From positions 1 to 53,283 of the IMG/VR virus record IMGVR_UViG_3300021090_000027: a stretch of DNA of 53,283 nt; one strand, given 5' to 3'. The stretch is from a virus. Below are positions 14,909-53,283 of this stretch, in pieces. The position numbers and the translations under genes are program-made. Every line of letters begins with the position of its first letter. Within the stretch, counting starts at the first letter, position 1. A model generated the notes under the pieces. The model was not told the DNA's origin. It did not search any database and saw nothing but the letters and a program-made list of their open reading frames with translations.

Positions 14909-15085
14909 TTAATACTTGAGTTGCCTGGCCAGTGCCTCACGGATGTCAGACTCACTCACACCCATACTGCGGAGGATCTGCTCCGCAAGCATCACCGAAA
15001 GATCAATGTCTTTCGCCGTTCCCACTTCGCACAACTCGACAACATTGACTGTGATCAGTTTCTTCTGTTGCTTAGTGAGATACAT
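14909..15085 (-). CDS. First gene of the minus block: small helical protein (58 aa)
   Basis: The ATG at 15085 follows AAGGGGAGAGAGC. The protein is basic at its N-terminus (LTKQQKKLITVNVV) and ends with a helical segment (SESDIREALARQLKY). It is the promoter-proximal gene of the accessory block. Function unknown. Confidence 0.65.
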   Translation of the reverse strand: MYLTKQQKKLITVNVVELCEVGTAKDIDLSVMLAEQILRSMGVSESDIREALARQLKY

Positions 15086-15950
15086 GCTCTCTCCCCTTGA
15101 TTGACTAACAGTGGACTGCGCAACTGATCAGCATGAGGACTTACATGGTCGTCGCCTGAGTGCATCGTGATACTGCACGTCTCTGATTCAGCCTCACAGA
15201 CAGCCGTTAGGCTGTAGGGAGACTCTTGCCGGTAAGCGCGCCTTACGCCGCTTCACCTAAGCGCGTGTCGGGGGACTGGTCACCATGTGACTCTGCCTCT
15301 CACCGGTAAACCACCGTGCCCCGCTCAATGCGGGATGGCAGTCAACCGGGTGACTCTCGCGTCTTAGCCGGTCCATTCAGTTATGAAGCATCAAGTTCAG
15401 TGCTACGGCTTACGTAGCTTCGATCCAGCTAGCTACGGCGCATCGAACGGTGGAACACCCCTGATCCTACCCCCACCAGCAACCCTGATCATCGGGTAAA
15501 CACCCGATAACAAGTCATACAATCACCCCATTGACAACACAGCGGTAGCTGTGATTAGTCCACACACAGTCACCAACACAAGATCAACAACAACAGAAAG
15601 TAACCTAAATTCACTACAATGATTAGTACAATAATCGTCTCACCATGTGAGACTGCCAGCATCAGACAGCACGCGTCAGCGTCCCAGCACTGTGCTTGCC
15701 GACCACAACCAGGCAAGCACCATCCAAGGGCGCCACAAGCGCCAGAGACAAGTAGACAGGCAACCACCCAGTTGCCTGCAATGACCCATGATTTCAATCA
15801 CCCCAATAAGACATCAGAACAAACTAGAACACGTTCTAGTTTAAAGAAAGGATAATCGACCACGGTCGATGATTAGAACAAGCGTTCAATTCATTGCATG
15901 CTGGCGCGTTGGCGCGCATTGTGGATCATGGTGGCCTGGAAGGGCCACAT
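15086..15950. other. Hairpin-rich non-coding leader of the minus block
   Basis: No ORF with a credible start is seen on either strand. The region holds many short stem-loops, including 15200-15215, 15232-15246, 15279-15291, 15320-15334, 15402-15418, 15491-15508, 15538-15553, 15637-15653, 15692-15720, 15729-15743, 15757-15778, 15821-15842, 15855-15870 and 15931-15948. Stems are 5-10 bp with mostly short loops, and the sequences differ. The direction of transcription is unknown; the minus block needs a promoter somewhere here. A structured 5' leader, non-coding RNA or replication origin are all possible. Confidence 0.7.
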
Positions 15951-16267
15951 TAGGTGATTAGTAAGTATTACAGCGTCATCTATAATGCCGGGTCAGGGCT
16001 GTACTGTATACGCGGCATACGCGCGTATATGGTGTATTACTGTGTAGTATGTTTATGGTGTACACAGCTGTGACCAGCATGGTTGTGTTTCCCAACTGTC
16101 CTCGTGGTTTGGGTGATTCCTAAAGGATCATGAGGGTTTATTAGTTGTCCTACGCTAAGTGTCCGGTTTGACCCGGGGATGCCTTATCGCCCCCCCTCTC
16201 CCCCCTCTACAATCATCAAAAATTTATCCTCCCGGTTTATTTTCATGATCATCTATGCAGGTGGGGT
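15951..16267. other. Non-coding gap with composition shifts
   Basis: No gene is seen. The stretch holds an alternating TA/GC tract near 16005-16030, a C-rich run (about 16190-16205) and an AT-rich segment before 16260. Such composition change could mark an origin or divergent promoters, but nothing definite can be assigned. Confidence 0.4.
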
Positions 16268-16660
16268 GGAAAAACTTTGAGGTTTTTCCTTGTATCAGTG
16301 CAGGTCAGAGGCTGTGTGACGGAGGTCACACAGTGGTGGTTGAATATTTGGTGTTTTTTTGTGCAGCTATATATATGAGACCTTTTGCAAAAAGGTCGAT
16401 GAGAGAAGGCAACGCCTCAGGGCGTTGCCTGATCGTCCGCGATAGCGGACTCTGGCACACCCCAAGGTGTGCCCTTACTAGTGTGAGGGCCGATCCTGAC
16501 GGATCGGCTTAATTATGGTTAGGGGAGCACTGGTGGTGCTCCCAGATTCATTCACCGCTGCTAAGCGGTTCAGCGTCAGCCGAAGCGGAACCCGGATGGG
16601 TTCCGGATACTTATACGCGCGTAAGAAACTTTTGAGGCCGTGAGCCTCCCATGGAGGCTC
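16268..16660 (+). other. Hairpin array in the late operon leader
   Basis: Consecutive perfect hairpins: 16268-16289, 16312-16333, 16380-16396, 16407-16430 (10 bp, TCAG loop), 16435-16450 (GATA loop), 16454-16473 (CCAA loop), 16489-16508 (TGAC loop), 16523-16543, 16554-16569 (GCTA loop), 16587-16604 (GGAT loop) and 16642-16660 (CAT loop). The last contains the GGAGG ribosome binding site of the first late gene in its 3' arm; an alternative stem 16634-16648 would disrupt it. This suggests a regulated leader RNA. Confidence 0.75.
16348..16375 (+). promoter_or_regulatory. Possible late promoter
   Basis: A TTGGTG element at 16348-16353 and TATATA at 16370-16375 are separated by 16 nt and lie just before the densest part of the hairpin array. 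The -35 match is imperfect, so this could also be a promoter for a phage sigma-like factor, or not a promoter. Confidence 0.35.
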
Positions 16661-16663
16661 CCC

Positions 16664-17527
16664 TTGGCAGACTTGGATACGTATTCTAGTACGATCACCG
16701 CGAACGCTCAATCGTTCGTGGTTGATACTATTTCGTGCACTGGCGCGTATGTGACAACGTTTGGTACGCATGCTGGTGTGGTTGTTGCTTTTGAGGGTAC
16801 GAACGATGGTGGTACCACGTGGTACGCGTTGAGCGCATTCACGATTAGTGCGGCTGGTGTGCCTGCGGGTACGGCGACCCTGTCTACGAATGGGTCGGCA
16901 CAGTTTTATGTGATTGTTGGTTTGGCGAAGCAGATGCGGGTTAGGTCGACGGCGTATACGTCGGGGACTGTGCAGTTGTCGGTGATGCCGGTTGAGGAAG
17001 CTGATCCGATGTTGTTGACGTCGGCGTCGACGTCGGCGTCTGCGGCGTTGCAGGATACGTTGACGAATCCGACGACGTCTCAAATTGGTGCGGACCAGAT
17101 GTTGTATAACGGGACGTCGTGGGATCGTGCCCGGAGCAATGTTTCTTCTCAGCAGGTGGAGGCGTCCGCTGCGCGGACGACTACCGCTAACGGTACAACG
17201 AACAATAACTATAACTGGCGTGGCGGTAATTTTCTTGTGAATGTGACGGCGGCGTCGGGTACGACTCCGACGTTGGTTGTTCGTTTGCAGTACACGATTA
17301 ACGGTACTGATTACCATGATTTAGATGCGACTAATGCTGTGACTGGGTCGATTACGACGACCGGTCAGCATATTCTGCGCGTGTATCCGGGGTTGACGGC
17401 GGCTGCGCCGACTGGTGGTTTGTCGGTGGCTAGTACGGTGTTGCCTCGCTTGTATCGGCCTGCTTGGGTCATTGGTGGGACTACACCGAGTTTCACTTTT
17501 TCTATTACTGCAACGTATTCTCTTTAA
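16664..17527 (+). CDS. Beta-rich virion structural protein (287 aa)
   Basis: A TTG start at 16664 is preferred because GGAGG lies six nt upstream; a GTG at 16640 lacks a site. Two beta-sandwich-like halves are visible: residues about 25-115 (GVVVAFEGTNDGGTTWYALS, a pattern common in phage surface proteins) and 180-287. Thr, Ser, Ala and Gly dominate, as in decoration or appendage proteins. Its place before the terminase is unusual. Possible roles are head decoration, head fibre or tail appendage. Confidence 0.65.
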   Translation: MADLDTYSSTITANAQSFVVDTISCTGAYVTTFGTHAGVVVAFEGTNDGGTTWYALSAFTISAAGVPAGTATLSTNGSAQFYVIVGLAKQMRVRSTAYTSGTVQLSVMPVEEADPMLLTSASTSASAALQDTLTNPTTSQIGADQMLYNGTSWDRARSNVSSQQVEASAARTTTANGTTNNNYNWRGGNFLVNVTAASGTTPTLVVRLQYTINGTDYHDLDATNAVTGSITTTGQHILRVYPGLTAAAPTGGLSVASTVLPRLYRPAWVIGGTTPSFTFSITATYSL

Positions 17528-17538
17528 GGATTTCATTC

Positions 17539-17760
17539 ATGGCTGATAACGCGTATAACACTCCAACTCCTGGTCCTTTGGGTGAGAAGCCGTTTGGTGC
17601 TGATTGGGATGCTGCGGTTACTACGCAGCCTTTCATTTTGGTGTCTGAGGCTGGTGTGATCAACACTATTTGGGTTGATGCTACTGGTGATCTTCGGATT
17701 AAGCAGACGACGGCTCCGACGTCGGGCACCGATGGTACTGTGATTGGTACTCAGGCGTAA
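17539..17760 (+). CDS. Small probable structural protein (73 aa)
   Basis: The ATG at 17539 follows AAGGATTTC and lies 11 nt after the previous stop. The product has a Pro/Gly-rich N-terminus and a beta-rich second half (VINTIWVDATGDLRI) ending in a T/G repeat. It overlaps the terminase start by one base. Possibly a decoration or fibre base protein. Confidence 0.6.
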   Translation: MADNAYNTPTPGPLGEKPFGADWDAAVTTQPFILVSEAGVINTIWVDATGDLRIKQTTAPTSGTDGTVIGTQA

Positions 17761-19652
17761 TGGCTAATCCGGCGGGGATCAGCCGGAAGCTTGAGGCGCA
17801 GGAAGTTGTTCTCCGGGAAATCAGTCTGGGGAAAACTGTTGCTGAGGCGTGTGAGACTGCCGGTAGGTCCGTAAAGAGTTATGAGAACTGGCGGTCTGAG
17901 GACCCTGCCTTCGCTGGCAGGGTTGATGAGGCCCGGTCTAACCGGAACTTCATGAAGAAGACTGGTGTGTCGAAAGACAATGTTCGGATGTCTTTCGAGG
18001 AGTGGCGTTTTAAGTTTTTGGGTCGTGAGACGTATCCGCATCAGCGGATGTGGATTGATATTATTGAGGGTCGGGAGCCGACGGATTTGCATCCGTCGAT
18101 GGTGTATGAACCGGCCAGACCGAACCGGTTGCTGATTAACACTCCTCCGTTCCATGCTAAGTCCACGATTATTACGCAGGAGTATGTTGCGTACCGTATT
18201 TGTATGAAGGCCACGGTACGTGTATGTATCGTTTCTAAAACACAGCAGAAGGCCAAAAAATTTTTATATAGCGTGAAAAAGATGCTGACGTCTCGCCAGT
18301 ATGCTCCGATGCAGGCGGCGTATGCACCGCCTGATGGTTTCAGGCATCCGGATTTCCCGTGGACTGCTACCATGATTTACGTTGATAACCCTGAGGGGTC
18401 CGAGAAGGATCCCACGGTGGAAGTCCTCGGGATCAGGGGAGACATCTATGGTGGCCGGTACGACCTGATCATCCTTGATGACTGTGTCACGAAGGAGAAC
18501 TGTAGCGAGTGGGAGAAGCAACTTGACTGGATCAACCAGGAGGTTTCTTCCCGGCTCTACAAGGGCAAGCTCATCGTGGTGGGTACACGAGTCGCTAGCA
18601 CGGACCTTTACAGCGAACTGCGGAATCCAGACAACTTCACGTCAGGCGTTTCCGCCTGGACGTACTTGTCGCAACCAGCGGTGCTACAGTTCGCTGATGA
18701 CCCTCAGGACTGGACGACGCTGTGGCCCCGATCGAATGCCCCGCTTGATGCGGAGGACGCGGGAGAACCAGATGCAGACGGTTTGTATGCGGCTTGGGAC
18801 GGACCTGCGCTCCGTGAAGTACGCGATGCTATTCGTCTCTCCACCTGGTCTCTTGTCTACATGCAACAACAGGTGGCTGACGATGCGGTATTTAATCCGG
18901 AGTGCGTACGTGCCTGCGTCAACCGTATCCGGAAACCGGGCCCGCTGATAGCTGGTGCTTTCGGTCATCTCCGTCAGGGGATGGAGGGCCAGTACATTAT
19001 TGCGAGTATGGACCCGGCGATGACCGGGGAAACATTCACCCTCGTGTATGCGGTGGATAAGAACGATAAGAAGCGTAGGGTGTTGAATTGTTGGGCGAAG
19101 GCTTCGCCTACGCCCGCATATATTCGGGATATGATCCAGGCGGTCACTGAAGAGTACGGTGTTCATGAATGGGTTATTGAGCAGAACGCTTTCCAGTTGT
19201 TCCTGATTCATGATGAACGTATTCGCGCGTATTGTAATTCGCGTGGGGTGAAGATCACCCCACACTACACCAGTAGGAATAAGATTGACCCTGATTTTGG
19301 GGTTGCGTCTGTGGCCCCGTTGTTCGGGTCCTTGAAGGTACGCGATGACGGGCGCAGGACAGGTCTTGACCATAATGGGGATAACTTCATTGAGCTCCCT
19401 TTGAACAACAATGAGGGTATCAAAGCCCTCATTGACCAGTTGATTACCTGGGAACCAGGGAAGCTGGGGAAGAATTTGAAGCAGGACGGCCCTATGGCTC
19501 TGTGGTTCGCGGAACTTCGCGCAAGAGCCATACTGGGAGACGGCCGTCCGAAGCGTCTTCACTTTGTGGAGAATCCCTATCTAAGTCGTGGGGATCGGAA
19601 GCAGCAGGTGGTTGTTCCTGCTGGGTCGTTCCGGACGGTTCTGACTCTGTAG
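17760..19652 (+). CDS. terL: Terminase large subunit
   Basis: This 630-aa protein has an N-terminal helix-turn-helix-like region (residues 15-60), then an ATPase domain with a degenerate P-loop (TPPFHAKST at 128-136) and a Walker B (LIILDD at 236-241). A nuclease domain begins around residue 415 (ASMDPAMTG, with the first acidic metal ligand). Together these drive DNA packaging into the procapsid with ATP and cut the concatemer. No separate small subunit is identified; the N-terminal HTH may supply DNA recognition or the small subunit may be unrecognised. Confidence 0.9.
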   Translation: MANPAGISRKLEAQEVVLREISLGKTVAEACETAGRSVKSYENWRSEDPAFAGRVDEARSNRNFMKKTGVSKDNVRMSFEEWRFKFLGRETYPHQRMWIDIIEGREPTDLHPSMVYEPARPNRLLINTPPFHAKSTIITQEYVAYRICMKATVRVCIVSKTQQKAKKFLYSVKKMLTSRQYAPMQAAYAPPDGFRHPDFPWTATMIYVDNPEGSEKDPTVEVLGIRGDIYGGRYDLIILDDCVTKENCSEWEKQLDWINQEVSSRLYKGKLIVVGTRVASTDLYSELRNPDNFTSGVSAWTYLSQPAVLQFADDPQDWTTLWPRSNAPLDAEDAGEPDADGLYAAWDGPALREVRDAIRLSTWSLVYMQQQVADDAVFNPECVRACVNRIRKPGPLIAGAFGHLRQGMEGQYIIASMDPAMTGETFTLVYAVDKNDKKRRVLNCWAKASPTPAYIRDMIQAVTEEYGVHEWVIEQNAFQLFLIHDERIRAYCNSRGVKITPHYTSRNKIDPDFGVASVAPLFGSLKVRDDGRRTGLDHNGDNFIELPLNNNEGIKALIDQLITWEPGKLGKNLKQDGPMALWFAELRARAILGDGRPKRLHFVENPYLSRGDRKQQVVVPAGSFRTVLTL

Positions 19653-49509: not shown

Positions 49510-49544
49510 AGAGCCCCCGGTCCGAAGACCGGGGGCTCTTCTTT
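49510..49544 (+). terminator. Terminator after putative regulator
   Basis: A perfect 13-bp GC-rich stem (49510-49522 with 49527-49539), CGAA loop, followed by TCTTT. It ends the regulator transcript and separates it from the early block. Confidence 0.85.
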
Positions 49545-49781
49545 GCACCGGATGATGAGTAGTAGTTATTATATATAATAGTATAGACCGGCCGAAGCCG
49601 GTCTATTTATAGTACATATCTATCAAATCAAGTGATTAAGAATTCAGTATACACAGTTCATCTTCCGGTGTCAACCTATTAAAGGTCATCCGAAGGGATG
49701 ACCTTGTTTTCTGCACTACCCGTAGATAGCCCGGCGATGCCGGGCATATTATGTTCATGTAAGCACAACCGAAGGGTTGGA
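49545..49781 (+). other. AT-rich early leader with hairpins
   Basis: The first part is very AT-rich (around 49565-49585). Hairpins: 49583-49606 (10 bp, CGAA loop), 49682-49705 (10 bp, GAAG loop, followed by a T-rich tract, so terminator-like), 49729-49745 (7 bp, GAT loop) and 49766-49779 (5 bp, GAAG loop, placing the ribosome binding site in and beside the loop). Promoters for the early block probably lie here, but no consensus pair is certain. Confidence 0.6.
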
Positions 49782-53022: not shown

Positions 53023-53283
53023 AACAGAATTCATCCTGGCCGAGTACTTGCAAGCGTACTGGCCTGAAGCTCACGCGACAGGTAAGAGCGCACCTGGTGA
53101 TGACATTGTGGGTACTGGAGTGTTGGCTATCGAAGCGAAAGCTACAGCTCACAATCCTATTCTTCCTGCTTTACGTCAAGCTCATGGGCGTGCTCGTGAT
53201 GGTCAAATTCCGGTGGTGATCTGGCGACCTAATGGGTTCGGTCCAGCGAACGTCGCTGACTGGGTTGTTGCAACAAGAGTAAG
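52982..53283 (+). CDS. Holliday-junction-resolvase-like nuclease, N-terminal part
   Basis: ATG 52982 follows GAGGAGG with nine nt spacing. The gene continues at base 1 across the circle. Residues include FILAEYLQAYWP, GKSAPGDDIVG (acidic) and VLAIEAKAT (E-x-K), together a small PD-(D/E)XK-type core like phage junction resolvases. It would resolve branched DNA before packaging. The full protein is about 118 aa after collapsing the repeat. Confidence 0.8.
   Translation, partial: MVVPRRSRINRGRETEFILAEYLQAYWPEAHATGKSAPGDDIVGTGVLAIEAKATAHNPILPALRQAHGRARDGQIPVVIWRPNGFGPANVADWVVATRV
53132..53283. repeat. Terminal direct repeat, right copy (circular overlap)
   Basis: Matches 1-152 except T at 53164 versus G at 33. 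The codon is leucine in both. See the left-copy entry. Confidence 0.95.

Follow-up and report, generated by a model that had tools for sequence, protein, structure and literature searches.

What does an 865-nt stretch of phage DNA, filled with short perfect stem-loops, do at the head of an operon: does it fold as RNA, act as DNA, or record template switching during replication? The stretch lies at 15086..15950 (presumed minus strand) of the window, by which we mean the whole of the analysed DNA, the 53,283-nt virus record IMGVR_UViG_3300021090_000027. Comparison of the window with itself showed that positions 1-152 and 53132-53283 are identical (152 nt), and the record is thus circularly permuted (circular or terminally overlapping) and appears to represent the complete genome of a phage, about 53.1 kb long. 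Profile searches identified the large terminase (TerL, 17760-19652), portal, major head protein, integrase, exonuclease, a DnaB-like helicase and a sigma factor, and the closest named relatives were the Streptomyces cluster BF podoviruses (Beephvirinae; TerL about 42% identical over 96%). In one related contig TerL is interrupted in frame by about 310 extra codons, which may be an intein (L004:4543-5496). No DNA resembling the junction or the region, near or distant, was matched in the phage record collection, no relatives were found for the two leftward proteins near the region, and GTDB prophages searched with an alignment query were distant ones only. Rfam 15 covariance models at the gathering score matched only two tRNAs in the window, so the suggestion of a non-coding RNA, made in the original prediction, found no known family to attach to.

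The region forms the left half of a 1.55-kb non-coding divergent junction (15086-16640) between a leftward operon and the late operon. Directly downstream of it is the first gene of the leftward block (14909..15085, minus strand; 58 aa), which has a strong SD sequence (AAGGGGAGAGAGCATG, arranged as AAGGGGAGAGAGC-ATG), and the CTCTCTCCC(C)TTG context upstream of this gene is common to the window and the cluster-BF phages. On the other side the late operon starts (16640..19652, plus strand) with a 295-aa protein, a 98-aa protein and the large terminase, which is the first large gene on this side. As had been proposed, the region holds no credible ORF: the longest inside it, 75 and 78 aa, overlap on opposite strands, and no support was found for either. 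Our best explanation, to which we give about an even chance, is that this half of the junction of a cluster BF-related phage is most likely the long 5' leader or control region of the leftward operon, adjoining a predicted end of the direct terminal repeat (DTR). Both transcripts would start near the conserved core described below and extend away from it through series of short stem-loops, which might protect the 5' region of the mRNA against nucleases or adjust early translation and termination; under this mechanism the sequences could drift freely because only the folding would matter. A long structured leader was among the functions originally suggested and best fits the position immediately ahead of the first leftward gene, but the strand and G-U tests reported below gave no RNA signal on the left side, and a search of 15000-16700 for a sigma-70-like promoter, which found none on either strand, also weighs against a leader.

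Hairpins were counted as non-overlapping perfect stem-loops with loops of 3-8 nt and stems of at least 5 bp, with dinucleotide shuffles (200) as the control. At least fourteen short stem-loops in about 865 nt had been claimed, and a density above that of shuffled sequence had been set beforehand as the test; we counted 17, against 3.9±1.9 in the shuffles (0/200 reached 17), with 9 against 0.8±0.9 for stems of at least 6 bp and 4 against 0.3 for stems of at least 7 bp. Perfect hairpins in the region, none assigned to a strand, include ATCGGGT-aaac-ACCCGAT (15491..15508), GTCTCAC-cat-GTGAGAC (15637..15653), CAGGCAAC-caccca-GTTGCCTG (15757..15778), AAACTAGAA-cacg-TTCTAGTTT (15821..15842), ATCGAC-cacg-GTCGAT (15855..15870) and GTGGCC-tggaag-GGCCAC (15931..15948). 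However, shuffles alone overstate the region, since the coding DNA of this phage also carries about four times as many hairpins of at least 6 bp as its shuffles, a point that tells against the leader reading, and the true local excess is about twofold. When 865-nt segments of the same phage outside the junction served as the control (n=501), none reached 17 stems of at least 5 bp (mean 8.5, maximum 16) and the 9 stems of at least 6 bp (mean 4.4) placed the region in the top 0.4%, whereas the 4 stems of at least 7 bp (mean 2.3) were equalled by 15% of the segments; the local surplus is made of 5-6 bp stems. The hairpin density is real, but a large share of its surplus over shuffles is a property of the whole genome.

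The stems of at least 6 bp are unevenly spread, with 8 in 15400-15950 (0.5 expected) and 1 in 15086-15400 (0.4 expected), and the strongest hairpin spot of the genome lies slightly further to the right, at 15801-16665. Folding z-scores of 200-nt segments in 15600-15999 went down to -5.4 on the plus strand and -3.3 on the minus strand, against about -7.7 on the late side. Across most of 15400-15999 it is the plus strand, not the presumed transcript strand, that folds better relative to its own shuffles, which again counts against a leftward leader. In the early coding regions of four freshwater relatives (L093, L106, L110 and L129; upstream of TerL), perfect hairpins of at least 7 bp, mostly with 3-4 nt loops, reached 14-25 times the shuffles, and in their late regions, where present, just 3-5 times.

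The junction contains a conserved core (16157..16245, plus strand) comprising TTGACCCGGGGATG, a C-tract, CTACAATC and AAATTTATCC. It was placed at 16168 in the window and at 295 in L003, 2392 in L004, 1364 in L067 and 2604 in L068, and these five cores have in common TTGACCCGGG(G/C)ATGCTTAA, slightly varied between them, a C-tract, an AAATTT-like stretch and CTACTATC, which reads CTACAATC in the window; when viral contigs were scanned for the core, four more were added (L148-L151), with L148 a near copy of L068. The anatomy of the junction (core, GCAGGTCAGAG, TATATA(A)GTGAGAG, hairpins, late operon) was found in the window, L067 and L068, and partly in L003 and L004. To the left of the core the window has a palindrome, TATACGCG-gcatacg-CGCGTATA (16007..16029, no strand assigned), and L003 and L068 have GTATAC-type sites at a similar distance. 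Distant relatives (L047, L049, L027-L029, L062, L063, L070, L122 and L142) likewise have a TTGACCCGGG-like element 0.4-1.1 kb upstream of TerL; its plus-strand form is about 6-fold more frequent there than in the rest of the loci, and its reverse complement is also frequent (16 vs 11).

The core appears to align with the right DTR boundary of three cluster-BF phages, a possibility that the original prediction had not raised. Exact DTRs of 276, 275 and 253 bp were found at this junction in three BF genomes (DTRs of 253 and 265 bp have been reported for BF phages; PMC9753666, PMC13097060); in the Abafar record the repeat is 396 bp long and its ends are set differently. In Manuel, Immanuel3 and FlowerPower a core-like GACCC..GGGG.TGTTAA stands 41-42 nt before the DTR end; the alignment is short (GACCC-GGGG-TG-TTAA) and syntenic, and in the whole Manuel genome it gave two loose hits, both of them DTR copies. 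Judged from this alignment, the genome end of the window phage probably lies near 16210, with a boundary element at about 16168-16215, and part of the hairpin region may be inside the DTR; whereas the DTRs of the three BF genomes are exact, this end is predicted from sequence.

Relatives keep hairpins on both sides of the core without conserving their sequence. Left of the core, stems of at least 6 bp numbered 9 in the window (0.8 in shuffles), 10 in L067 (2.0), 5 in L068 (1.0), 8 in L004 (1.5) and 4 in L003 (0.4), and L150 has 11 hairpins in the 445 nt left of its core; among the relatives compared, no long shared sequence was found on this side. These left hairpins mirror those of the late-operon leader across the same core. 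The named BF phages (Manuel, Immanuel3, FlowerPower) resemble the window in having a leftward operon, a long non-coding leader (1.35-1.74 kb left of the core-like element), a probable equivalent of the core, and TerL, in this order. However, their left leaders hold 3.3-6.0 hairpins/kb (at least 6 bp), near the normal level of their own genomes, whereas that of the window is enriched, and this difference speaks against the leader reading. The BF genomes tested have a single 7-9 bp hairpin (three in Manuel), varying in sequence, about 75 nt or less from the first leftward start. Unlike those of cluster BF, the replication genes of the window phage run rightward.

On the late side, the core is followed by the conserved GCAGGTCAGAG with a palindrome, by TATATA(A)GTGAGAG and then by a hairpin array of unrelated sequence. 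In the window these are GCAGGTCAGAG and CTGTGTGAC-ggag-GTCACACAG (GTGTGAC..GTCACAC; 16300..16333, plus strand), a probable regulator site; TATATATATGAGA (16367..16380, plus strand; TATATAAGTGAGAG in relatives), the presumed -10 region or late transcript start; and eight perfect hairpins (16379..16605, plus strand), the presumed late-mRNA leader, to which the folding score of about -7.7 belongs. Because the right-side arrays begin just past TATATA(A)GTGAGAG, they are probably the leader of the late mRNA, and the elements right of the core would together make up the promoter and leader of the late operon. Upstream of TerL, freshwater relatives (L005-L024, L050) have four tandem hairpins that hold their positions while the paired bases of the stems change together (GTGCCCC/GGGGCAC becoming GAGCGCC/GGCGCTC, for example; G-U intermediates were not seen), and such paired changes at fixed places indicate that on the late side the hairpins as such are kept. 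Like those of the window, these are short perfect hairpins in tandem in a late leader; they differ in being confined to the late side, in their sequence conservation within the clade and in their T-rich loops.

The same hairpin style, and one mechanism, had been proposed for three operon leaders. The style recurs at 16379-16605, and in relatives the left and right arrays of the junction flank one conserved element, but the likeness does not extend to the site at 49.5 kb, which looks terminator-like, several of its stems matching the terminator pattern. That site comprises a tight group of perfect hairpins (49510-49745), several terminator-like by scan, and the minus strand at 49674-49646 has an 11/12 promoter match (TTGACA-17-TATACT).

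Strand and pairing tests bear on whether the left hairpins act as RNA. Neither loop energy nor loop bases gave a strand preference for the left-side hairpins; with eight genomes pooled, left loops had 14 purine-purine and 15 pyrimidine-pyrimidine ends, and right-side loop ends showed a weak purine bias (19:6, p=0.015 uncorrected). Perfect stems were strongly enriched (26 vs 1.6 expected on the left, 37 vs 1.4 on the right), whereas G-U-interrupted stems were not (2 and 1; on the left side, 2 with G-U and 1 with A-C), and stems broken by G-U were no commoner than those broken by A-C. The left-side loop and G-U results argue against selection on RNA, and with neither a strand preference nor a G-U bias an RNA function of the left hairpins is plausible at most. 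Template-switch repair, in which a single event can produce perfect stems (PMC8794818), is also compatible with the strict pairing and the double changes. The main rival of the leader reading is accordingly a mutational one, in which template switching during replication keeps creating and repairing perfect inverted repeats that pile up where no protein constrains them, so that the left hairpins have no function. The genome-wide surplus, the strictly Watson-Crick stems, the strand-neutral left loops and the unrelated hairpin sequences of relatives are all in its favour. Yet the junction has the highest hairpin density of the genome, the BF left leaders are equally non-coding and not enriched, and the four hairpins of the freshwater relatives hold their place while their pairs change; we regard this explanation as somewhat unlikely. 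Less likely still is a reading in which both arrays are selected for folding alone and renewed by template switching, as a sequence-free cis element that marks or protects either the ends of the genome or the two leaders.

The strand-neutral, strictly Watson-Crick pairing on the left would also suit palindromes that serve as single- or double-stranded DNA signals at the terminase cut or DTR boundary, in concatemer processing, packaging or end replication. Hairpins flank on both sides the element aligned with the BF boundary, and several related contigs (L148, L003, L150, L002) end close to the core, but BF phages with mapped DTRs do without dense arrays and the right arrays begin just past a promoter-like motif, and we think such a terminus structure quite improbable. 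Streptomyces telomeres (PMC4513846) offer a likeness in their short palindromes closely packed near DNA ends, whereas the BF relatives of the window use direct repeats. That the leftward transcript carries a cluster of intrinsic terminators or attenuators is very unlikely: two minus-strand stems (15653-15637, 15870-15855) have U-rich tails, but most stems, though short stem-loops like those of terminators, lack the T-run that follows the GC-rich stem of an intrinsic terminator, and the three terminator-like sites in 15000-16700 are no enrichment over shuffles (1.2±1.1). N4-type hairpin promoters, which have 3-nt loops and an injected polymerase, were considered and rejected, as no Pfam hit was obtained for the 1546-aa protein and the hairpins have no sequence in common. 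The least probable reading, and a remote one, is a replication origin with iterons or binding palindromes, which had also been suggested. The cumulative GC-skew minimum does fall here, near 15.9 kb, but it coincides with the change in gene direction and carries no independent information, and because skew follows gene orientation we dropped it as evidence. Within about 400 nt, four 9-mers resembling TGATTAGT share one orientation (15551, 15619, 15869, 15954), several directly after a hairpin, and would suit an origin, but there is no strong iteron family and the direct repeats form short, weak families only.

Whichever reading holds, the core provides a handle (TTGACCCGGGSATGCYTWA) with which to search for such junctions. 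If the hairpins are by-products, the junction would preserve a clean natural record of how template switching mutates phage DNA. If they are functional, they would constitute a cis element conserved in position and folding though not in sequence, which ordinary homology searches would miss, and this element would lie where a widespread phage family has its main control and probable packaging junction.
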